54,422 nucleotides of DNA from Bacilli bacterium (lineage in GTDB: Bacteria; Bacillota_I; Bacilli_A; RFN20; CAG-826). The notes beneath the pieces were generated by a model. It made no database searches. It was not told the DNA's origin and saw only the letters and a list, made by a program, of their open reading frames with translations. Positions 3,385 to 46,987 of this stretch are shown piece by piece (positions within the stretch are counted from its first letter, which is position 1; every line of letters begins with the position of its first letter). Both the position numbers and the translations under genes were made by a program. The stretch lies in the NCBI GenBank assembly GCA_017534425.1, contig JAFXWB010000054.1, positions 1 to 54,422 on the forward strand, given 5' to 3'.

Positions 3385-4778
3385 TTGATTTCTCCTCCGT
3401 TTCCTCCAACAGTCATTTCGCTGACTCTGATTGTTGGTTGTCCAACATCAACAGGAATAAATCCAGAAGCGGCTCCACACATACCTTGAGCGCGTTCTAG
3501 ATCGTTTCCAATCATATCAATCTTCATTAAGATTTCTTGTCCAGTTCCGATAACGGAAGCCCCTCTTACAGGTTCGCAAATTTTGCCATCGCGAATTAAG
3601 TAGGCTTCACTACAACCAAAGTTGAATTCACCGGTAACAGGATTGACTTGTCCACCTGCCAAGGATTTTGCATATAAACCAAATTTGGTTGCAGCAATAA
3701 TTTCTTCTGGAGTTGATTTGCCTGCACAAATATATGTATTGGACATTCTTGATGTAGGTTCATATTTATATGATTGTCTTCTACATGCTCCATTACCTTT
3801 TCTATTCATACGTCTACCGTTGAAATCATCGATAAGGTAGTTTTTAAGAATCCCGTTTTCAATTAATAAGGTCTTTTCGGTTTTGTTTCCTTCATCGTCA
3901 ATATTGTTGCTTCCCCAACCATTTGGGATAGTTCCGTCGTCAATGGCTGAAAGGATTGGTGAAGCTATCTGTTGGCCGATTTTTCCCGAGAAAACCGATA
4001 GATTTCGAGAAACTGCAGATGCCTCGAGAGGGTGTCCACAAGCTTCATGGAAGAGCGTCCCACCAAAACCATTACCAATAACAACAGGCATTTTTCCGCT
4101 CGGGCATTCTTTTGCCTCAAGCATCATAATTGTTTTCTCGCCAACATTTTTGCAAAGCTTTTTAACATCAATATTCTTCTCAAAGAATTCAAATCCAGCG
4201 CTAGCGCCAGGGCCTTCAAAACCAGTTTCTATCTTTCCTTGATCTGCAGCGACACACATGACACCGCATCTTCCTCTTTCTTTATAGTCTAGATGATTGA
4301 AACCCTTAGTGTTGATGATTTGAACTTTAGAAATTGAATACATAAAAGAGACGTTTGTTCTGACGATTCTTTTATCGACATTTCTTAATGTCTCGTCACC
4401 AGATTTTATGTAATCAATAATTACTTTATCATTAATGTTTGAAAATGAATCTTCAATTTGAGAAATATTTTTAGCTTTTTTTGTAACTAATTTATCCACT
4501 GTTAATACTTGTTTATCGTGGAAGGAATTAGATAAATTCTGAATTAATTTTGTTAATGCTTTTTCACTAACTTCATTGGTATATCCATAAACACTTTGCA
4601 GTTTGTTTAAAAGACGAATTCCGGCGCCACATGAATGACGTACAGCTGAATTTTCAACTTTGCCATTCTCAACAGTAACAGAAAATGAGTCTTTCTCTTC
4701 AATGTAGATTTCTGCATAATCTGCGCCAGTATGTAAACCACTATTTAGGATACGAATAGCTTGATTTTTGTTAATCAT
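3381..4778 (-). CDS. tldD: TldD zinc metalloprotease subunit
   Basis: 465 residues. The catalytic zinc site HEACGH is at residues 244-249 (H244, E245, H249), inside the conserved stretch GNGFGGTLFHEACGHPLEAS. The C-terminal segment contains RAQGMCGAASGFIPVDVGQP, typical of TldD. It pairs with the downstream tldE gene as a cytoplasmic heterodimeric protease. The ATG at 4778 is preceded by a strong AAAGGAGG ribosome binding site. A TATAAT-like sequence lies further upstream on the minus strand, but I see no good -35 for it. The region to rpmE (4779-4939) is shared with the divergent rpmE promoter. Confidence 0.95.
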   Translation of the reverse strand: MINKNQAIRILNSGLHTGADYAEIYIEEKDSFSVTVENGKVENSAVRHSCGAGIRLLNKLQSVYGYTNEVSEKALTKLIQNLSNSFHDKQVLTVDKLVTKKAKNISQIEDSFSNINDKVIIDYIKSGDETLRNVDKRIVRTNVSFMYSISKVQIINTKGFNHLDYKERGRCGVMCVAADQGKIETGFEGPGASAGFEFFEKNIDVKKLCKNVGEKTIMMLEAKECPSGKMPVVIGNGFGGTLFHEACGHPLEASAVSRNLSVFSGKIGQQIASPILSAIDDGTIPNGWGSNNIDDEGNKTEKTLLIENGILKNYLIDDFNGRRMNRKGNGACRRQSYKYEPTSRMSNTYICAGKSTPEEIIAATKFGLYAKSLAGGQVNPVTGEFNFGCSEAYLIRDGKICEPVRGASVIGTGQEILMKIDMIGNDLERAQGMCGAASGFIPVDVGQPTIRVSEMTVGGNGGEIK

Positions 4779-30868: not shown

Positions 30869-31189
30869 TTAGAAACTTCCGTCGACCTCCATATCAATGA
30901 TATTTACAAAATCGAGGTTCCCATGTTCGAGAATTAGTCGTCTATTTTCTAAATCTATTCTTTTGATAGTTGAATTAATGTAATACAAATATCCATCATT
31001 AAAAAATTTAATTTTCACAACCTGACCTTTTTGGTAAGACTGAAGAACGTAATTAATCTTCTCTTTTTGATCTTCGGTAAGAATCGGCTTTGCAATCTTA
31101 TTTCTTTGGTACTTCATTTCTTCTAAGCATGTTGCTTGTTCAATCAAAGAGGAATATGGGGCCCATTTTTTCATTCCACGATCACTCAT
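30869..31189 (-). CDS. YolD-like protein
   Basis: 106 residues. The N-terminus DRGMKKWAPYSSLIEQ matches the YolD pattern (DRG..KW.P...L.E). The rest is a small beta-rich domain. YolD-like proteins are encoded with UvrX-type Y-family polymerases in Bacillus and are thought to regulate or assist them. The four-base overlap (ATGA) with the polymerase gene supports this pairing. Confidence 0.85.
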   Translation of the reverse strand: MSDRGMKKWAPYSSLIEQATCLEEMKYQRNKIAKPILTEDQKEKINYVLQSYQKGQVVKIKFFNDGYLYYINSTIKRIDLENRRLILEHGNLDFVNIIDMEVDGSF

Positions 31190-32430
31190 TTATGGTGTCC
31201 TCCTATTTGGTTATGTCTTTCTTTAGCTGTACTTTCTTCAAGAAGAGATGAAGCTCTTAAGATTGTGTCTTTACCATATTTGCGTTTGAGACTATCGATT
31301 GTCTTTGTCATTTCTTTTTTCGTTTCGTCGGTATGACCAACTTCAAATAAATTGAGTTGTTCGTATTCTCCTGATTCGAGTTGAGAATAGCTAATATAAA
31401 CTGCTCTAACCTTGTGATTTCCTATGTATTTCTCATAAATTTTTAATAAATCTTCGTAGATTTTATCAGTATCATCAGTTGGATAATCAAGAGTCACCTG
31501 GTGAGCAAATCCACCCCCTTCTGAATATGTATATCTAATAGCTACTCCAAGTCTTTTAGTTGTTTTGTTATGTTCCCTAAGTCTCATTGCTAAATCATCA
31601 TTCATTTCTTTAAGTATCAATTTGCCTTCTTCTGGGGAATAGTCCTTAAAAAGGACTTGACCAATAGAGAATGATGTATCTTGAGGTATATATTTGTCTC
31701 TTAAGTTTGTGTTATCAATTCCGTTAGCGTGCTCCCAAAGTTGTTCGCCCATAATACCAAATTTTGCTTTAAGTAAATTTTTGTCAGTATTTGCGAGTTG
31801 ACCAACAGTTTCAATACCCATTGCATTGAGCTTTGTTTCATAACCAAAGGAAATTCCCCACATTTTTGTAAGAGGAGTTATCTTCCAGAGTTTATTTTTA
31901 ACATCCGCCTTAGTCCATTGGGCAATATATGGGGCACGTTTCTTAGCATCAGTATCTAAAGCGACTTTTGCCATTAACATATTGTATGAAATTCCAGCAG
32001 TCGTTATTAAACCTGTTTTTTCAGTGATTGCTTTTTGAAGTTTTCTTACAAGTTGATATGGTGTGCAGTTATATGCTTTTAAATACGGACCAAGATTAAC
32101 AAAAAATTCATCAATTGAATAAATATGAATATCGTCTTCTCCAATATAATCTAAAACAATATTTATAATCTCTGCGCTCTTTTTAACATATAAGCCCATT
32201 CTTGGTTGAGCGAAGATAAGACCTTCAATTGGGGGAAGTTCTCTTCTTCTACATCTAGATGGCACGCCTTGGTCTTTTAAAAATGGAGAAACCGATAAGA
32301 CAATTGTTCCCTCGCCTCTAGTTGGATCGCATACTACTAAAGGTGTGGTAAAAGGGTTGAGTTTTCTTTCAATGCACTCAACAAAAGCATAAAATGCTTT
32401 CATGTCAATGACAGCAATACTTCGATCCAT
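31186..32430 (-). CDS. Y-family DNA polymerase (UvrX/UmuC-like)
   Basis: 414 residues. The catalytic metal ligands lie in IDMKAFYAFVE and YSIDEFF. The palm, fingers and little-finger layout is complete and is closer to UvrX/YqjW (UmuC group) than to DinB: IYSIDEFFVNLGPY and WGISFGYETKLNAMGI. It performs translesion synthesis. Start at ATG 32430; I see no clear SD. It is followed by an overlapping yolD-like gene. No LexA box was found upstream. Confidence 0.92.
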   Translation of the reverse strand: MDRSIAVIDMKAFYAFVECIERKLNPFTTPLVVCDPTRGEGTIVLSVSPFLKDQGVPSRCRRRELPPIEGLIFAQPRMGLYVKKSAEIINIVLDYIGEDDIHIYSIDEFFVNLGPYLKAYNCTPYQLVRKLQKAITEKTGLITTAGISYNMLMAKVALDTDAKKRAPYIAQWTKADVKNKLWKITPLTKMWGISFGYETKLNAMGIETVGQLANTDKNLLKAKFGIMGEQLWEHANGIDNTNLRDKYIPQDTSFSIGQVLFKDYSPEEGKLILKEMNDDLAMRLREHNKTTKRLGVAIRYTYSEGGGFAHQVTLDYPTDDTDKIYEDLLKIYEKYIGNHKVRAVYISYSQLESGEYEQLNLFEVGHTDETKKEMTKTIDSLKRKYGKDTILRASSLLEESTAKERHNQIGGHHK

Positions 32431-39696: not shown

Positions 39697-39772
39697 GGGC
39701 CTGTAGCTCAGTTGGGAGAGCGCCTCGTTCGCAACGAGGAGGTCACCAGTTCGATCCTGGCCAGGTCCACCA
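39697..39772 (+). tRNA. tRNA-Ala (anticodon CGC)
   Basis: A complete cloverleaf: acceptor 39697-39703 pairs with 39762-39768 (one G-U), D arm GCTC/GAGC, anticodon stem CCTCG/CGAGG with loop TTCGCAA (anticodon CGC), T loop TTCGATC, and encoded CCA at 39770-39772. The A-C mismatch at the base of the T stem is tolerated in tRNA-Ala. It reads GCG codons. It stands alone at the left edge of the accessory region. Confidence 0.96.
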
Positions 39773-39789
39773 TGAATACCTGCTACTGT

Positions 39790-39932
39790 CGTCGTCCAAA
39801 GTCACTTATCCAAAGTTGGACAAAATGACTTATCCGACAAACATGAAACAAGTCCTCGCAAGAGGGCTTTTGTTTTATGTCTCAAACCGGCGACCTCCTC
39901 GTAGCGAACGATCCGCCTCCCAGGACTGAATT
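39790..39932 (+). repeat. Dispersed repeat A, copy 1 (palindrome, terminator, inverted tRNA-like part)
   Basis: Three modules in order. First, GTCGTCC and a palindrome, AAGTCA (39799-39804) to TGACTT (39826-39831), with TCCAA/TTGGA nested inside. Second, a terminator, GTCCTC/GAGGGC (39852-39867), then TTTTGTTTT. Third, about 39880-39932, a decayed copy in inverted orientation of tRNA-Ala. Read on the minus strand it shows D-arm remnants, an anticodon arm with loop TTCGCTA, AGGTC and the first half of a T arm (GCCGGTTTGA), then stops. It begins 17 bases after the intact tRNA. Confidence 0.75.
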
Positions 39933-40096
39933 TAAGCTATCAAACAAGCCCGTGGTGGAGCTTTGCCTCTAAGTCCTAATAAATGCTTATCAACAGCTTG
40001 TAATGCATCACACGTGAGTCCTGCCTCTAAACTCAAAAAATGTGTCGCTTCTGAGGGGACGAAACCAATTCCTAAATATTTGATAATAATGGTGTC
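39932..40096 (-). other. Unassigned open stretch, possible gene fragment
   Basis: The minus strand is open for 54 codons without a convincing start. The translation looks protein-like (VPSEATHFLSLEAG, ALQAVDKHLLGLRGKAPP), but I recognise no family. A similar peptide (IIDKRLLL) can be read downstream of repeat copy 3 near 45255-45285, so this may be repeat-associated sequence and not a gene. Nothing else is seen in this stretch. Confidence 0.25.
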
Positions 40097-40124
40097 TTAA
40101 ATGACAGAAAGGAGACAGCGAGCA

Positions 40125-40454
40125 GTGTCAGCAGTAGAACTCACAAGATACAAACCAAAAGGCTGGGACGAGTATTTCGTCGATGGAGGAGTATTTGAAG
40201 TGAAAATTAGTGAGAGCAGTCCAGGGGTTAACATTGAGTACGAAGAATTTGGTTCTTTACAAGCATGTCCAGACGATACATTAATAAAAACTGTTATTGT
40301 TAAAGACGACGACAGAGAAATCACTTTAGATCATTCTATTGATATGGAAGATTTCAAACCATCAGGGCATAGATACATCATCTCTGTTTATAACAAACTC
40401 ACGAAGAAAAAACTCAAGTTCGAAATTAGTGAAGATACCATGAAGTCCGTCTAA
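40125..40454 (+). CDS. Small hypothetical protein
   Basis: 109 residues from a GTG at 40125, ten bases after AGGAG; an ATG at 40101 would add eight residues but would put the RBS inside the gene. The protein is charged and beta-rich-looking, with no signal peptide or membrane segment. It has a cysteine at about 45 and a C-terminal half KDDDREITLDHSIDMED. I recognise no family. A terminator hairpin follows the stop directly. It is the only gene between the tRNA and the AraC regulator. Confidence 0.6.
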   Translation: MSAVELTRYKPKGWDEYFVDGGVFEVKISESSPGVNIEYEEFGSLQACPDDTLIKTVIVKDDDREITLDHSIDMEDFKPSGHRYIISVYNKLTKKKLKFEISEDTMKSV

Positions 40455-40460
40455 GCTGAA

Positions 40461-40574
40461 AGCCAGGTGTAAAAGCCTGGTTTTTTCTTGTTCGCGAAAG
40501 CTTGAAAACACGACATAATTGCGATAGGTCGATTTGGACAAAACAGGATGGATTGGCTTAGACAACTACAACTA
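40461..40574 (+). repeat. Dispersed repeat B, copy 1, with terminator
   Basis: Starts with AGCCAGGTGTAAAAGCCTGG and T6 (hairpin CCAGG/CCTGG, 40463-40480, a terminator for the 109-aa gene). It continues through TTCGCGAA, AACACGACATAATTG, GACAAAACAGGATGGATTGG to GACAACTACAACTA. A second copy at 44918-45029 is highly similar along its length. The reverse strand of both copies can be read as SKPIHPVLSK, but no gene structure supports it. Confidence 0.75.
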
Positions 40575-40624
40575 CCCCCATTTATTGGACCATCCGGTAC
40601 AATGATGAATGGGGGTTTTATTTA
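40575..40624 (+). terminator. Long terminator hairpin before araC
   Basis: CCCCCATT (40575-40582) and AATGGGGG (40608-40615) form the outer stem, with ATTG/CAAT inside, followed on the plus strand by TTTTATTT. It would stop rightward transcription before the convergent AraC gene. Confidence 0.75.
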
Positions 40625-40651
40625 TGATTCGAAGTCGCAGCATAATTTAGA

Positions 40652-41473
40652 TTAATAAGACGATATGATTGGTGAATGCCCCCAGTAATGTTTATAAGCC
40701 CTAGAAAATGATTGGACCGAGGAATAATTCAGTTTTTTACTAATAGCTTTGATACTTAATTTATTCTCTTTAATCAATAATTTAGCACTTTCCATTCTCC
40801 TGGTTTTAAATAACTCAAATATGGTTTTTCCAGTTTGTTTACTATAAACATCCGATAAGTATGAATAACGATATCCAAATTCGTTTTCTAATTCTTGTAG
40901 AGAAGAAATGCGATAAATATTATCGTGAATATAGTTTTCAATCCTCATACAAATATCTTTTTGGCGAGAATACGCTACTTTTGTATAATTTTCGCTGAGA
41001 TAATGGCGTTTAATTAACTGCGAAATTTCAAATAATCTATAGGCGATAAGAATGAAAGATTCATCATCTAAAACATATAATTCTTCAATCGCTCTTTTCA
41101 ATGATTCTGTTTGAATATGAATTATTCTGTTTTTCCTTATAAAAGGAATTAAAGCAAGAAAACTGTTGATATCGTTTTCATTATTGAAATGAAATGATGC
41201 ATATGAATAAGAAAAAGAAGGTGAGTTAGATTTGATGGAATGAATATCTCCTGGAATTGAGATATGCATATCTCCACTTTTCATTAGAAACTGTTCATTA
41301 TCTGTTTGAACAACACAAGATCCTTTATCTACATAAGTGATTTCATACCAATTCAAATGAATGTGTGGCTCGCAATAAAAAGAATCGTTTGTGTCGATAT
41401 GTCCTATTTGGTGCAAACAAAGCCCTCTTATTATCTTTGGCTCATAAATGGAGCAATATTCATTCTTCTTCAT
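40652..41473 (-). CDS. AraC-family transcription regulator
   Basis: 273 residues. An N-terminal cupin-like sensor domain (HIHLNWYEITYVDKGS, MKSGDMHISIPGDIHSI) is followed by two helix-turn-helix motifs of the AraC type at about 185-273 (YSYLSDVYSKQTGKTIFELF and LSIKAISKKLNYSSVQSFSRAYKHYWG). Such proteins usually bind a sugar or sugar derivative and activate nearby genes. It is divergent from two Gfo/Idh/MocA genes across a 120-base gap with palindromes, which it probably controls. Confidence 0.92.
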   Translation of the reverse strand: MKKNEYCSIYEPKIIRGLCLHQIGHIDTNDSFYCEPHIHLNWYEITYVDKGSCVVQTDNEQFLMKSGDMHISIPGDIHSIKSNSPSFSYSYASFHFNNENDINSFLALIPFIRKNRIIHIQTESLKRAIEELYVLDDESFILIAYRLFEISQLIKRHYLSENYTKVAYSRQKDICMRIENYIHDNIYRISSLQELENEFGYRYSYLSDVYSKQTGKTIFELFKTRRMESAKLLIKENKLSIKAISKKLNYSSVQSFSRAYKHYWGHSPIISSY

Positions 41474-41536
41474 ATAAAAAAATGCTAAGAAAATTATAGA
41501 ACATTAAGAGCAAAATCGAAAGAAATGTTAACTACA

Positions 41537-41577
41537 ATTAAAACTTTGTTATTGATGTTTTAATACAATTTAATTGT
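41537..41577. promoter_or_regulatory. Inverted repeats in the araC-oxidoreductase gap
   Basis: Two dyads: ATTAAAAC (41537-41544) with GTTTTAAT (41557-41564), and a perfect palindrome ACAATT-T-AATTGT (41565-41577). They lie 16-57 bases before the oxidoreductase start and are candidate regulator sites. No convincing -35/-10 pair was found. Confidence 0.4.
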
Positions 41578-41593
41578 CTAGGAGATTATTTAT

Positions 41594-42652
41594 ATGTCAG
41601 TTGTTGCAATTATTGGGTGTGGAAGAATAGCGAATTATGCTCACTTCCCTGCTTTAAACAAACTCGAAAATGTCCGAATAAAATATGCCTGTGACATTAT
41701 TATGGAAAAAGCCGAAAAAGCAAAACAAGATTATCCGAAAATTGAGAACACAATTCTTGATTATCATGACGCTTTAAATGACAAAGATGTTGATACAGTT
41801 TTTGTGCTAGTACCAAACTATGAACACAAAAGAATTACCATTGATGCTTTAAGGGCGGGCAAGAACGTTTTATGCGAAAAACCAATTGCGTTGAATTATG
41901 AAGATGCTTTAGAAATGCAAAAAGAAGCTAAAAAAGCCGGCAAAATCTTAAATATAGGTGTTAATAACCGTTACAATACTGCAGTTAATACGGTGAAGAA
42001 AATGTGCGAAGACGGAACACTTGGACACATCTATCATGTCGAGTCTCATTTCTTCACAACTAGATCTATACCAGGCTTAGGCGGACCATTCACTAATAAG
42101 AAACTCTCTGGTGGTGGTGTCTTAATTGACTGGGGCGTTCACATCCTTGATTTAATTCAATATTTAGTCGGACACAAAACATTAAAGAGTGTCAGTGCTT
42201 CCACAAATTCTGAATTAGCAAAGAACATGAAAGATTATAAATACGGAAATATGTGGGCAGAAGATACTGCTGATATCGAACATGGTGTGAATGACGTTGA
42301 AGAATTTGTTTCCTGTTTTGCTAGATATGATGGATATACATTATCTCTAACTGGTGGTTGGGCCACCAACATTCCCGCGGATGAATTCTATATTGACATT
42401 TATGGTTCGAAAGCTGGAATTCGCCTTTACTATGTAAAACAAAAATTTAAAGTCTTCTTAGGTGAGACCCTCGAAGTAACCGAAAGCAACATCCCAGAAG
42501 AAAATCATTATGATATTGAAGACAGAATGTTTATTGATTCTGTTGAAAATGGAGTTCCTAATAGAGGGCACATCGATGAAGTCATTGATATCGAAAAACT
42601 TATTGATTTGATTTATCAATCCGCTGATGAAGAAAAGGAAATTAGATTATGA
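41594..42652 (+). CDS. Gfo/Idh/MocA-family oxidoreductase
   Basis: 352 residues. N-terminal Rossmann fold with GCGRIANYAHFPAL, the conserved GKNVLCEKPIAL (EKP lysine), and a C-terminal alpha/beta substrate domain containing GGGVLIDWGVHILDL (the active-site D..H pair). Such enzymes oxidise or reduce sugars, inositols or aminosugars with NAD(P). The ATG follows AGGAG by about 8 bases. It overlaps the next gene by four bases. The substrate is unknown. Confidence 0.9.
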   Translation: MSVVAIIGCGRIANYAHFPALNKLENVRIKYACDIIMEKAEKAKQDYPKIENTILDYHDALNDKDVDTVFVLVPNYEHKRITIDALRAGKNVLCEKPIALNYEDALEMQKEAKKAGKILNIGVNNRYNTAVNTVKKMCEDGTLGHIYHVESHFFTTRSIPGLGGPFTNKKLSGGGVLIDWGVHILDLIQYLVGHKTLKSVSASTNSELAKNMKDYKYGNMWAEDTADIEHGVNDVEEFVSCFARYDGYTLSLTGGWATNIPADEFYIDIYGSKAGIRLYYVKQKFKVFLGETLEVTESNIPEENHYDIEDRMFIDSVENGVPNRGHIDEVIDIEKLIDLIYQSADEEKEIRL

Positions 42653-43494
42653 AGAGAATTGGTTTAATTGACTACTACATTAATGAGTGGCATGCTTTGA
42701 ATTACCCAACGTTTTTAAAGAATGTTAAAGATGCTATTGATGGTGAATTTGAAATCACTGATTTTTACGCTGAAATAAATCACCCCGATCTATCTTCTGA
42801 TGAATATGAAAAGCAATATGGTGTTCATAAATGTTCTTCTTTAGAAGAACTATGTAATATATGTGACTATTTAATGGTGTTATATCCAGATAATCCAGAA
42901 CGTAAGTTTGAAGTTGTTAAAAAGGTGATTCCATATAAGAAACCTATGTTTGTTGATAAGACCTTTATGAATAGTTTTAAAGAAGCTGAAGAAATATTTG
43001 AATTAGCCAAGCAACATCAAACGCCTTTATTCACATCATCTTCTTTAAGATATGCTGATGAAGTCAGAGAGCTAGGTGATGTTGATTCACTTCTTGTTAT
43101 TGCCCCAAGTGTTCATTTAAGCGACTATTTGATTCACCCATTAGAAATTGTTGTGTCTAAAATGGGTGTAGGCGCCACTAAAGCGAAACTATCTAAAAGT
43201 GGTGTCCATCATATGTTGGACGTTAAATACAAAAACGGAAGAAACGCACTTATAGTAATTGCGGAAGGCGGAAACGCCCAAGATTTCTTTGTCAGTGGCA
43301 ATGGTAAGTTTAAACAAAACCTTGTCCGATGCGCATCTCCATATTTTGAAAACGAGATGAAAGATATCTTGCGTTTCTTTAATGAAAAAAAACCATCCTT
43401 CTCTTATCTTGAAACTTTAGAAGCAATGAGACTACGTGACATCGCTCTTCAAAACAGATTTGATGAATGGATTAATTTAAATACCATTTACTGA
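42649..43494 (+). CDS. Atypical, short Gfo/Idh/MocA-like protein
   Basis: 281 residues. The overall order matches a Gfo/Idh/MocA protein (Rossmann-like N-terminus, a VDKTF segment where EKP is expected, a C-terminal HHMLDVKYKNG region). However, the N-terminal GxGxxG is absent (LIDYYINEWHAL instead) and the C-terminal domain is short. Cofactor binding may be altered or lost, and it may act as a partner of the upstream enzyme. ATGA overlap implies coupled translation. Its last 18 bases overlap the 3' end of a gene fragment on the opposite strand. Confidence 0.75.
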   Translation: MKRIGLIDYYINEWHALNYPTFLKNVKDAIDGEFEITDFYAEINHPDLSSDEYEKQYGVHKCSSLEELCNICDYLMVLYPDNPERKFEVVKKVIPYKKPMFVDKTFMNSFKEAEEIFELAKQHQTPLFTSSSLRYADEVRELGDVDSLLVIAPSVHLSDYLIHPLEIVVSKMGVGATKAKLSKSGVHHMLDVKYKNGRNALIVIAEGGNAQDFFVSGNGKFKQNLVRCASPYFENEMKDILRFFNEKKPSFSYLETLEAMRLRDIALQNRFDEWINLNTIY

Positions 43495-43688
43495 GGCAAT
43501 CATTGCCCAACTATTATCAGATAAAGGGGCATCATCGTTTCCATTAGTGATGATGTTTTCTTTTAATTCAGGAATATCTTTTATTCTGTTGTTTAGATAT
43601 TATCAACAAATTTTAAAGTTGTTTCTAAACGATTCTTCAAATACCCCAATCGACCATCTATAACGTCGAAACCTTGAATCTTGTTGTA
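43477..43688 (-). pseudogene. Frameshifted 3' fragment of an unidentified gene
   Basis: On the minus strand a frame reads GFDVIDGRLGYLKNRLETT to a stop at 43593-43595. A one-base shift near 43597 continues with YLNNRIKDIPELKENIIT and ends SWAMIASVNGI at 43477. Together these give about 70 residues of a plausible protein C-terminus with a single frameshift. The 5' side is cut exactly at repeat copy 2. The texture recalls the C-terminal helices of some sugar hydrolases, but I cannot name the family. Confidence 0.55.
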
Positions 43689-43770
43689 GTCGTCCAAAGT
43701 CACTTATCCAAAATTGGACAAATTGACTTATCTAGCTTAGATTAGGCCTCTTAAGAGGTCTTTTCTTATT
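43689..43770 (+). repeat. Dispersed repeat A, copy 2 (no tRNA-like part)
   Basis: Begins GTCGTCCAAAGTCACTTATC and contains the palindrome 43697-43729 and a terminator-like hairpin GGCCTC/GAGGTC (43745-43760) followed by TTTT. Unlike copies 1, 3 and 4, no tRNA-like segment follows. It abuts the truncated gene fragment on its left. Confidence 0.7.
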
Positions 43771-43810
43771 ATTGATGTGTAAATTATGGATAAAATACTC
43801 TGGTTAAGAT

Positions 43811-43839
43811 TTGATATACTGCATATAAAATGCTAAAAT
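43811..43839 (+). promoter_or_regulatory. Promoter of the Fic gene
   Basis: TTGATA (43811-43816), 17 bases, TAAAAT (43834-43839). The start codon is 25 bases downstream with AAAGGA as RBS. Confidence 0.7.
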
Positions 43840-43863
43840 ATATGCAGAAAGGAAATTGATGTC

Positions 43864-44919
43864 ATGCATAAATATACTTACGAATTTTTAAAAGATAAAA
43901 CAATTACTTCCGATCTTTTTTCTTTATCAAATATCATTACTGATTTAAAAAGCAAAACAGATGAAAAAAAAGATTCAAGCAAATCACTTTTTTCTAAGTT
44001 GGAAACGGTCGCCATTAAAGAATCTGTTGAAGGTAGCAACGCTATTGAAGGTATTTTTACAACTGAGCAAAGAATTAAGGAGATTATTGAAAATAATAGT
44101 GAACCATTAACTCATAATGAAGAAGAGATTGCTGGCTATCATGATGCCATTAAATTTGTAAAAGAGAATTATGAGCATCTTTCCTTTGATGAAGAGACAA
44201 TTAAAAGAATACACGCCATGCTTGTTTCTAGACATATTGGATACGATAAAAGCGGGCAATATAAAACTAGTGACAACGTAATTGCTGAAAAGAATAAGGA
44301 TGGAACAATTAAACGTGTTATTTTTGTTCCAACAAAAGCAAACGAAACCGAAAAAGCAATGAGTGATTTGTGCTTAGCTTATCAGGTTTATAGAGATGAT
44401 TATGATATTCCTGCACTTTTATTAATTCCGTGTGTAATAGTGGATTTCCTTTCCATCCACCCATTCAGTGATGGTAATGGTCGCGTTTCTAGACTTTTAA
44501 CGTTATTGCTTCTTTATAAAGAAGGCTATGATATTGGCAAATATATATCATTTGAAAACCAAATCAATAATTTTAAGAGCAATTATTATGATGTTTTAGA
44601 AAGAAGCCAAAAACACTGGCACGAATCCAAAAACACATATTATCCATTCATAAAATTTACATTTCAGATTCTTTATCAATGTTATAAAGAAATTAATAGA
44701 AGATTTATTAAAACCAAAAGTGGAAAAGATAAAAAGAACGAGCGAATTGAGGCCGTGGTTTTAGATAGTATAGTTCCAATTTCTAAAGCCGATATTCAAG
44801 AGTTACTGCCTGATGTTTCAGTGACTACAATTGAGGCTGTTTTAGCAAAACTAATCAAAGAAAACAAAATATATAAAATTGGAACTTTTAAAAACGCTAA
44901 ATATTTAAATAGAAATTAG
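43864..44919 (+). CDS. Fic-domain protein (probable AMP transferase)
   Basis: 351 residues. The catalytic Fic motif HPFSDGNGRVSR lies at 199-210 with all key residues intact. An N-terminal inhibitory helix motif SNAIEG (58-63) fits [S/T]xxxE[G/N], so this is a class II Fic with its own brake. The C-terminus (about 285-350) looks like a winged helix (IVPISKADIQELLPDVSVTTIEAVLAKL). Fic proteins usually transfer AMP from ATP to a target protein. It stands alone with its own promoter, between repeat copies A2 and B2. Its stop codon touches the first base of repeat B2, so the C-terminus may have been defined by that junction. Confidence 0.92.
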   Translation: MHKYTYEFLKDKTITSDLFSLSNIITDLKSKTDEKKDSSKSLFSKLETVAIKESVEGSNAIEGIFTTEQRIKEIIENNSEPLTHNEEEIAGYHDAIKFVKENYEHLSFDEETIKRIHAMLVSRHIGYDKSGQYKTSDNVIAEKNKDGTIKRVIFVPTKANETEKAMSDLCLAYQVYRDDYDIPALLLIPCVIVDFLSIHPFSDGNGRVSRLLTLLLLYKEGYDIGKYISFENQINNFKSNYYDVLERSQKHWHESKNTYYPFIKFTFQILYQCYKEINRRFIKTKSGKDKKNERIEAVVLDSIVPISKADIQELLPDVSVTTIEAVLAKLIKENKIYKIGTFKNAKYLNRN

Positions 44920-45219
44920 CCAGGTGTAAAAGCTTGGTTTTTGTTCGCGAATGATTATAAACACGACATAATTAGGATAGGTCGTTTTAGACAAAACAGG
45001 ATGGATTGGCTTAGATAACTACAGCTTATAGTCGTCCAAAGTCACTTATCCAAAATTGGACAAATTGACTTATCCGACAAACATGAAAGAAGTCTCGTAA
45101 GAGGGCTTTTGTTTTATATATCAAACTCTCCACCTCCTCATAGCGAACGAAGCTTCTCCCAACTGAACTAATGTATCTCACATAACAATTAGAAGCCCAA
45201 CTGACCAATGGGCTTCTTT
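44918..45219 (+). repeat. Composite repeat: B copy 2, A copy 3, inverted tRNA-like part and terminator
   Basis: The fullest copy. 44918-45029 is module B with a weaker hairpin (CCAGG/CTTGG) and T5. 45030-45071 is module A with the palindrome 45039-45071. A weakened terminator hairpin follows at 45092-45106. About 45118-45173 is the inverted tRNA-Ala remnant; on the minus strand its anticodon arm pairs CTTCG/TGAGG around TTCGCTA, and CAGTTGGGAG is intact from the D arm. 45191-45217 is a strong terminator, AGAAGCCCA/TGGGCTTCT, then TTT. Confidence 0.75.
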
Positions 45220-45385
45220 TATATATAGGCGTTATAGCAAGATTGAAGAGTAACAAACGCTTATCAATAATCTGTCAAATCAAACTTGGTGAGATTAAGA
45301 TATCATTATTGAAGTCATTAAAGTTATGTTTATTGATTTTATGATTTTTTATCTTATTCTTATCACTATTTTTAGATGATTGATA

Positions 45386-45442
45386 TATAATTTATGATAG
45401 AAAAGGTGACTTGATACTAGATTTTAATCTAGTTGGTCAAGT
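45386..45442 (+). promoter_or_regulatory. -10 box and nested inverted repeat upstream of the third oxidoreductase
   Basis: TATAAT (45386-45391) without a good -35 is followed by a nested dyad: ACTTGA (45409-45414)/TCAAGT (45437-45442) outside and ACTAGAT (45416-45422)/ATCTAGT (45427-45433) inside. No T-run follows, so it looks more like an operator or leader stem than a terminator. The rest of 45220-45493 is AT-rich and shows nothing else. Confidence 0.4.
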
Positions 45443-45493
45443 AGTTGAGGACATTTACTATAACAACGCTATTAAGTAATTCTTAGGAAAATT

Positions 45494-46729
45494 ATGCTAA
45501 AAGTTTCATGTATTGGTTGTGGCCTTAGAGGTCAAAGATATTTAAATGGTCTAGCAAGTCTTGGAACGGACAAAGTTAAAATTGTTTCACTTTGCGATAA
45601 AGACTTAGTGAGACTGTCTCAAGAACAGGAGAAATATCAATTATCAGATAAAGATGTCTATACTGACGAAGATAGATTCTTTGCTAATTTAAAATCTGAT
45701 TTGTGCATTGTTTCTACACAAGATCAAGACCATGTTAGACACGCCATTAAAGCAATGAAAGCAGGATCTGATGTTCTTTGTGAAAAACCAATATCTGATA
45801 AAGAAAGTGAAATTAGAAAACTTTTAGATATTCAAAAGAAGACTGGAAAGAAAGTCATGATTTGTCATGTCTTAAGATTTGCTCCAGCATATAAAAAAGT
45901 TAAAAAATTAATAGAAGATGGAGCAATTGGTGATTTAGCGTTTATTGATAGCATCGAAAACGTTAATTACGCCCATCAGGCACATAGCTACGTAAGAGGC
46001 AATTGGAGAAGAAAAGAAGAAGCTTCGCCAATGATTATTGCTAAATGCTGTCATGATTTAGATTTGTTAGTTTGGTATACGAATAGTAAATGTAAATCAA
46101 TATCCTCTGTTGGTGATTTGAAATTCTTTAAAAAAGAAAATCAACCTGATGGGGCAAGCGATAGATGCGTGAATTGCAAATATCGAGGTACATGTCCTTT
46201 TGACGCTTATACGATTTATATTAAAAACCATTTCTGGGGAAAAGAAGCGGTCACCAATATTAGACCAATCACTGATGAAGTATTAGAAAAAGAACTAGAA
46301 ACAAGTCCATATGGTCGTTGCGTCTTTAAATGTGATAACGATGTAGTTGATCATCAATTAACTCAAATAGTATTTAATAACGGAATTAAGGCCAATTTAA
46401 GAATGAGCGGCTTTACTTATGACGCTGGTCGAATTATGAAATTTTACGGCACAGCCGGACAAATTGATTTAGATGAGGGCCGTGGCACAATTGAAATTAA
46501 AGTATTTGGAAAAGAAAAAGAAGTGGTTCAAATCTCATCATTAGTCGATGCGATTAGCGGACATGGTGGTGGAGATGAAGGTTTAGTGAAAGCGACTTAT
46601 GAATATATCACTACCGGTTATACTGAAGGTGTTACATCTTTAGACGCCTCTATTGAAAGCCATTTAATGGGCTTTGCCGCTGAAGAAAGTCGCTTATCAG
46701 GCGGTAAATTAATGGAGATTAAACACTAA
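45494..46729 (+). CDS. Gfo/Idh/MocA-family oxidoreductase with internal cysteine cluster
   Basis: 411 residues. Rossmann motif GCGLRGQRYLNGLA, conserved GSDVLCEKPIS, and a substrate domain with KCCHDLDLLVWY. Between about 215 and 235 it carries CVNCKYRGTCPFDAY (C-x2-C-x5-C), a cysteine cluster that occurs in a subgroup of this family and could bind a metal. It is probably an NAD(P)-dependent sugar or inositol dehydrogenase of unknown substrate. It lies between repeat copies A3 and A4 and is not in an operon with the pair at 41.6 kb. Confidence 0.9.
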   Translation: MLKVSCIGCGLRGQRYLNGLASLGTDKVKIVSLCDKDLVRLSQEQEKYQLSDKDVYTDEDRFFANLKSDLCIVSTQDQDHVRHAIKAMKAGSDVLCEKPISDKESEIRKLLDIQKKTGKKVMICHVLRFAPAYKKVKKLIEDGAIGDLAFIDSIENVNYAHQAHSYVRGNWRRKEEASPMIIAKCCHDLDLLVWYTNSKCKSISSVGDLKFFKKENQPDGASDRCVNCKYRGTCPFDAYTIYIKNHFWGKEAVTNIRPITDEVLEKELETSPYGRCVFKCDNDVVDHQLTQIVFNNGIKANLRMSGFTYDAGRIMKFYGTAGQIDLDEGRGTIEIKVFGKEKEVVQISSLVDAISGHGGGDEGLVKATYEYITTGYTEGVTSLDASIESHLMGFAAEESRLSGGKLMEIKH

Positions 46730-46735
46730 TTATAT

Positions 46736-46910
46736 TTTTAGACAAAACTGAATAAGTCTAACTGTCCAACGTCAATAATTGTCGTTGTCCAAAGTCACTT
46801 ATTCAAAATTGGACAAAATGACTTGTTCAAACAGGTCCTCGAAAGAGGACTTTTGTTTTATGTATCGGACCTTCCCGTGCGAACAAAGCTTCTCCCAACT
46901 AAACCAATGT
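46736..46910 (+). repeat. Dispersed repeat A, copy 4, with inverted tRNA-like part
   Basis: Starts with a trace of module B (TTTTAGACAAAAC), then GTCGTTGTCC and the palindrome 46792-46824. A perfect terminator follows: GTCCTC-GAAA-GAGGAC (46835-46850), then TTTTGTTTT, which also serves the upstream gene. About 46860-46910 is the inverted tRNA-Ala remnant, with TGCGAAC from the anticodon loop and TCTCCCAACT from the D arm. This is the most diverged of the three tRNA-like parts. Confidence 0.7.
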
Positions 46911-46987
46911 CCCTCCAGGAGCGACCAAAATAAACTTTAAACGATCAAAATTGTCAACATTAAACTTAAATAATAATTTAAATATGT

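Follow-up and report, generated by a model that had tools for sequence, protein, structure and literature searches.

Integrons are the textbook case of enzyme-less gene cassettes gathered in arrays. Tn7 produces a 5-bp target duplication, the direct repeats at the ends of Tn7/Mu-type DDE elements are transposase-binding sites, and CRISPR-associated transposons are guided to their targets by delocalised spacers. Tn7-like elements have been described integrating downstream of tRNAs (PMC8649781), and CyCAST inserts 30-33 nt behind a tRNA (PMC10293859). The mobile insertion cassettes (MICs), including MIC231 of Bacillus cereus and the Tn3-family MICs of Xanthomonas, consist of passenger genes between transposon ends and contain no transposition enzyme (PMC6304161).

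The window, i.e., the whole analysed stretch of 54,422 nucleotides, contains four copies of a repeat, all on the plus strand, at 39787, 43685, 45027, and 46780. The initial annotation had located these copies correctly, together with their GTYGTCCAAAG start and the arms AAGTCA/TGACTT with nested TCCAA/TTGGA. It had treated the repeat as a stand-alone unit and missed the right boundary; each copy is the left end (LE) of a larger cassette and thus one half of it. Most probably, these LEs belong to non-autonomous transposons that form one family in uncultured ruminant-gut Bacilli, here termed "mobile gene cassettes", which a DDE transposase would move in trans.

The cassettes share with the MICs the passenger genes between transposon ends, the lack of a transposase, and the requirement for an enzyme in trans; they differ in that no cognate autonomous transposon was found and in their head-to-tail arrays behind tRNA-Ala(CGC) and their ends with repeated sites of the Tn7 type. 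The 5-bp duplication is a feature in common with Tn7. Like Tn7-like elements and CASTs, the cassettes have several ~20-bp sites at either end, diverse cargo, and safe-site insertion at a set distance from a tRNA or gene in front (PMC8649781, PMC10293859). This distance is 11-16 bp in the cassettes versus 30-33 nt in CyCAST (PMC10293859), the units are mostly 0.5-2 kb and at most about 7 kb long, and tnsABC/tniQ were not detected. Because the search for these defining genes was negative, the cassettes were not classified as Tn7-like. Integrons also have arrays in which mostly single-gene cassettes share their boundaries, carry Fic and toxin-antitoxin-like cargo, and contain no recombinase. However, the absence of an integron integrase and the presence of target duplications oppose this assignment, and joining sites of the attC type were not seen here when the junction arms were compared by eye. 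MITEs are likewise short and non-autonomous and have terminal inverted repeats as well as target duplications, whereas the cassettes carry genes and prefer sites behind particular genes. The system appears to reach an integron-like outcome at a defined docking site in gut Bacilli, but by another chemistry, marked by TGT termini, repeated sites of the Tn7 type, and 5-bp duplications. A limited literature search found no published description of such cassettes.

Structure of the cassettes and their ends

Inverted right ends (REs) matching the LEs were found in the window at 40570, 45023, and 46774, the last one being divergent. The window therefore comprises three complete cassettes, E1 (39787-40570), E2 (43685-45023), and E3 (45027-46774), and a solo end, E4, consisting of the LE at 46780, for which no RE was found within the window. 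Upstream of E1 lies an intact tRNA-Ala(CGC) (39697-39772, plus strand; ARAGORN; Rfam RF00005, 59.6 bits), the neighbour of the target. The LE of E1 (39787-39835, plus strand; nhmmer profile, 62.5 bits) shows a terminal TGT and two direct repeats of ~24 bp and is followed by a terminator-like hairpin recognized by sequence (39850-39876, plus strand). The E1 cargo is an ORF of 117 aa (40101-40454, plus strand) assigned to no family in a Pfam search, and its RE (40480-40570, minus strand), a seed of the RE profile, is 87-88% identical to that of E2. The cassette is flanked by a probable 5-bp target duplication, GCTAC on the left (39782-39786, plus strand) and ACTAC on the right (40571-40575, plus strand), which match in four of five positions.

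E2 begins with an LE at 43685-43733 (plus strand; 58.7 bits), carries a gene for a Fic/DOC protein of 351 aa (43864-44919, plus strand; PF02661, E=3.7e-16), and ends with an RE (44938-45023, minus strand). E3 consists of an LE (45027-45075, plus strand; 56.8 bits), a gene for a GFO/IDH/MocA oxidoreductase of 411 aa (45494-46729, plus strand; PF01408, E=3.1e-16), and the divergent RE (46730-46774, minus strand; 14.1 bits), which is similar to an RE in locus L186. The LE of E4 (46780-46828, plus strand; 58.7 bits) is separated from E3 by the 5-bp spacer ATAAT. The region between E1 and E2 (40576-43684) has no cassette ends of its own; by sequence, it encodes an AraC-type regulator and two GFO/IDH-like oxidoreductases. 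These genes lay directly behind the tRNA before the arrival of E1.

The two ends are built on the same plan. The LE has a 5'-TGT followed by direct repeats of ~24 bp, GTTGTCCAAAGTCACTTATCC and TTGGACAAAATGACTTATCC, and the RE has a 5'-TGT followed by the corresponding repeats TTGTCTAAGCCAATCCATCC and TTTTGTCCAAATCGACCTATC. The arms that had been described as a palindrome are present but are better read as the two direct repeats of the LE. Sites of ~20 bp thus run in direct orientation within each end and in inverted orientation between the ends, with TG..CA termini, as in Tn7-like elements. This anatomy points to Tn7-type transposition, and the conserved common part of the repeat is a transposon end, without tRNA homology. 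In most LEs, the repeats are followed by a terminator. Its sequence, TTTTGTTTT, had been ascribed to all four copies but is common only to copies 1, 3, and 4; copy 2 has a different one of its own (AGGCCTC..GAGGTC TTTTCTT). The terminator probably substitutes for that of the tRNA or gene in front. The order of the unit is LE, terminator (if present), a decayed antisense tRNA-Ala remnant (if present), cargo, and RE. An Rfam match of E1 to STnc50 (26.9 bits, cut-off 55) was dismissed as a terminator resemblance, and a sequence of genome G010 (loci L033/L086) first read as a tRNA remnant was recognized as an RE once the RE profile had been built.

Insertion sites, arrays, and horizontal transfer

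Among the tRNA-linked LEs, 20 of 21 begin 11-16 bp past tRNA-Ala(CGC). Part of this constancy could go back to a single old insertion and its inheritance instead of repeated targeting. In L083, no element lies directly behind the tRNA, and TAAATGCCCGCTAC is followed by a native terminator; occupied sites read TAAATACCCGCTAC/TGTCG in L071 and TGAATACCTGCTAC/TGTCG in the window, and L034 is also occupied. The gene rpsR is a second insertion neighbour. Perfect 5-bp duplications flank a 531-bp element behind rpsR in G007 (ATTGT), a 1151-bp element behind rpsR in G017 (CAAAA; L081), and the first element behind tRNA-Ala in L076 (AAATT). At the RE/LE junctions, as read from the table of ends, the spacer is exactly 5 bp long in 9 of 17 cases and 2-7 bp long in the other 8, and its sequence varies from junction to junction. 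A DinB/polY-like gene, found in the window at 31186-32430, is a conserved neighbour of the docking tRNA-Ala in most relatives, often together with an RmuC-like gene.

Within its own genome, the repeat is confined to the four copies of the window, and many further copies occur in related genomes. In the GTDB genome collection, the exact 21-base LE pattern matched 29 stretches. All of these come from MAGs whose titles name uncultured Erysipelotrichaceae, Bacilli, or Bacillales, and several are explicitly from ruminant hosts; scans of IMG/VR with the LE and RE patterns gave no match. The inner RE motif occurs in 42 of the 279 genomes of the order (15 of 56 genera), and the reversed control pattern occurred in none of the listed genomes. 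Head-to-tail units were observed in several related genomes, such as RUG12224 (L075, L182), which has three successive LEs at a spacing of ~580 bp with Nif11-like leader ORFs between them. The cargo includes genes for Fic proteins, Nif11-type leader peptides, RhuM, toxin-antitoxin-like proteins, and metabolic functions. Nif11-like leader-peptide genes (L075, L062, L069, L080, and L182) were the commonest, with 29 of the 158 ORFs falling into one cluster. An element of ~7.1-7.5 kb behind tRNA-Ala (L028, 11000-18135; L180, 957-8449) is near-identical in two MAGs, and its genes resemble those for glutamine synthetase III, CTP synthase, an aminotransferase, and a LysR regulator.

The Fic cassette E2 is 92.3% and 92.9% identical to its copies in L076 and L036, which belong to two other species, while the secA genes of those genomes are only 73-74% identical to the secA of the window; the cassettes therefore move horizontally. 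The match between E2 and L076 starts within one base of the first base of the LE, and the order of cassettes differs between L080 and L097. The repeat had been proposed to be mobile and non-autonomous, and this is supported.

Search for the mobilizing enzyme

In the mechanism we propose, a DDE transposase supplied in trans would cut at the TGT ends and insert the cassette into a target opened with a stagger of 5 bp. A target selector would recognize tRNA-Ala(CGC), so that new cassettes would land by the tRNA and older ones would be pushed outward. More tentatively, the system may constitute an integron-like gene-cassette platform of uncultured gut Bacilli, in which the trans-acting transposase docks at tRNA-Ala(CGC) without TniQ.

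TniQ was detected in 0 of the 279 genomes of the order; the control genomes gave no signal either, so this does not prove its absence. The only protein above the Mu-transpos_C cut-off, of 632 aa (G145), is not linked to the ends and was rejected, as it lies on a 3.1-kb contig without such ends; the other matches were sub-threshold. Matches to rve in 11 of 21 array genomes belonged to IS3-type or unlinked proteins only, and IS3 elements were discarded as a source of the enzyme because no LE or RE lies nearby. Tn3 was found in 0 of the 21 array genomes. The Phage_integrase matches proved to be of the XerC/XerD type by tree and C-terminal motifs and were excluded as a dedicated integrase; no tyrosine recombinase linked to the arrays and no IntI integrase were found. 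Among the 158 ORFs in or near the arrays, no recombinase was recognized except for an ORF at a contig end downstream of a cassette (L083, 6485-6829), which we take from its sequence to resemble an IS200/IS605-type transposase. Among the inspected loci matching the patterns in GTDB or IMG/VR, and among those examined within the order, no autonomous element with the same ends was seen. MAGs often lack the plasmids and other mobile DNA of their source, and the enzyme may therefore be unbinned. The missing enzyme is a directly searchable question.

Excision and insertion of the cassettes at the RE-spacer-LE junction by a tyrosine recombinase, with the tRNA-proximal LE as an attI-like site, would also account for head-to-tail arrays of mostly single-gene cassettes free of recombinase cargo, for the toxin-antitoxin-like and Fic genes, and for the inverted arms GACAACKACA/TGTMGTTGTC around the 2-7 bp spacer. 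We regard such an integron-like process as unlikely, however, because the perfect 5-bp duplications at the isolated rpsR elements fit a staggered-cut transposase and not a conserved-overlap recombinase, the spacer sequences differ, and the classified tyrosine recombinases are XerC-like or XerD-like, several array genomes having those two only. Transposition in trans is the preferred reading. A large serine recombinase-like gene (L189, 9498-11192; G104) was observed ~1.4 kb from a weak RE.

The tRNA-Ala remnant in the left ends

Decayed tRNA-Ala fragments occupy the minus strand in the LEs of E1 (39880-39929, D arm to T loop; alignment score 55 versus a shuffle maximum of 29), E3 (45120-45175; 53 versus 23), and E4 (46862-46912; 37 versus 22). 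The antisense tRNA-Ala part had been predicted for copies 1, 3, and 4, and in all three its alignment score exceeds those of 500/500 dinucleotide shuffles; across the family, the 11 best fragment copies score above all 500 shuffles in the alignment to tRNA-Ala. Its truncation in the T loop and constant junction to ATAAAACAAAAG in the three copies were likewise borne out. The fragment fails the covariance-model scan proposed as a check: copies 1 and 3 give no RF00005 match up to E=10 and are not foldable as a tRNA. The plain sequence homology to tRNA-Ala is nevertheless significant. On the opposite strand, the fragment extends backward from the T loop across the anticodon and D arms and, in the longest copies (L071, L076, and L097), as far as the acceptor. 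It starts directly after the T run of the terminator, and its cut points on the cargo side vary in a stepwise truncation, a pattern that would be expected if the module had once been complete and cargo had entered it at varying positions.

The significant homology in 11 dispersed copies is what a tRNA-derived mobile repeat, SINE-like or tRNA-templated, would leave, and the repeat had been described in such terms. This explanation is scarcely tenable. The tRNA part is internal and antisense, gives no tRNA score, is variably cut on the cargo side, and is missing from many LEs, including those of E2 and the Nif11 cassettes, which are mobile without it; across copies it is 74% identical versus 92% for the LE, and the unit as a whole carries cargo between transposon ends. 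Tempting as the misreading is, a fossil tRNA within such an end does not make a bacterial SINE.

Foreign tRNA-Ala matched or outscored the host's own in 9 of the 10 copies tested, and the tenth gave a tie between the host tRNA-Ala and a related type. The best match is mostly of the L073/L085 type and usually not the host's own, in agreement with the earlier view that the tRNA parts have a common ancestor and are not copies of the adjacent gene. The segment could instead be functional, guiding RNA-based homing to the tRNA-Ala target or marking it: the elements sit behind the very gene that it matches, the fragment of L078 has 18 identical nt in the anticodon arm, and Tn7-like elements are described as integrating downstream of tRNAs (PMC8649781). 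We consider this very improbable, given that many cassettes at the same sites lack the segment, that its erosion outpaces that of the end, that it does not follow the tRNA of the host, and that TniQ gave no signal, in the order or in the control genomes. Judged from sequence comparison, the fragment is a fossil passenger, since it is absent from many LEs, decays faster than the end, and is matched no better by the host tRNA than by foreign ones. It would have been captured once in an ancestral LE, at a guess by template switching at the palindromic end, then carried along with the cassettes, and would now be eroding.

Decayed tRNA 3' ends (T loop to CCA) were also observed in displaced positions in L063 (13365-13425; G007), L083 (~4035-4072), and L077 (~1240-1263); together with the usual 13-14 bp, they precede some internal LEs. 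These displaced ends suggest that classical tyrosine-integrase islands share the same tRNA-Ala.
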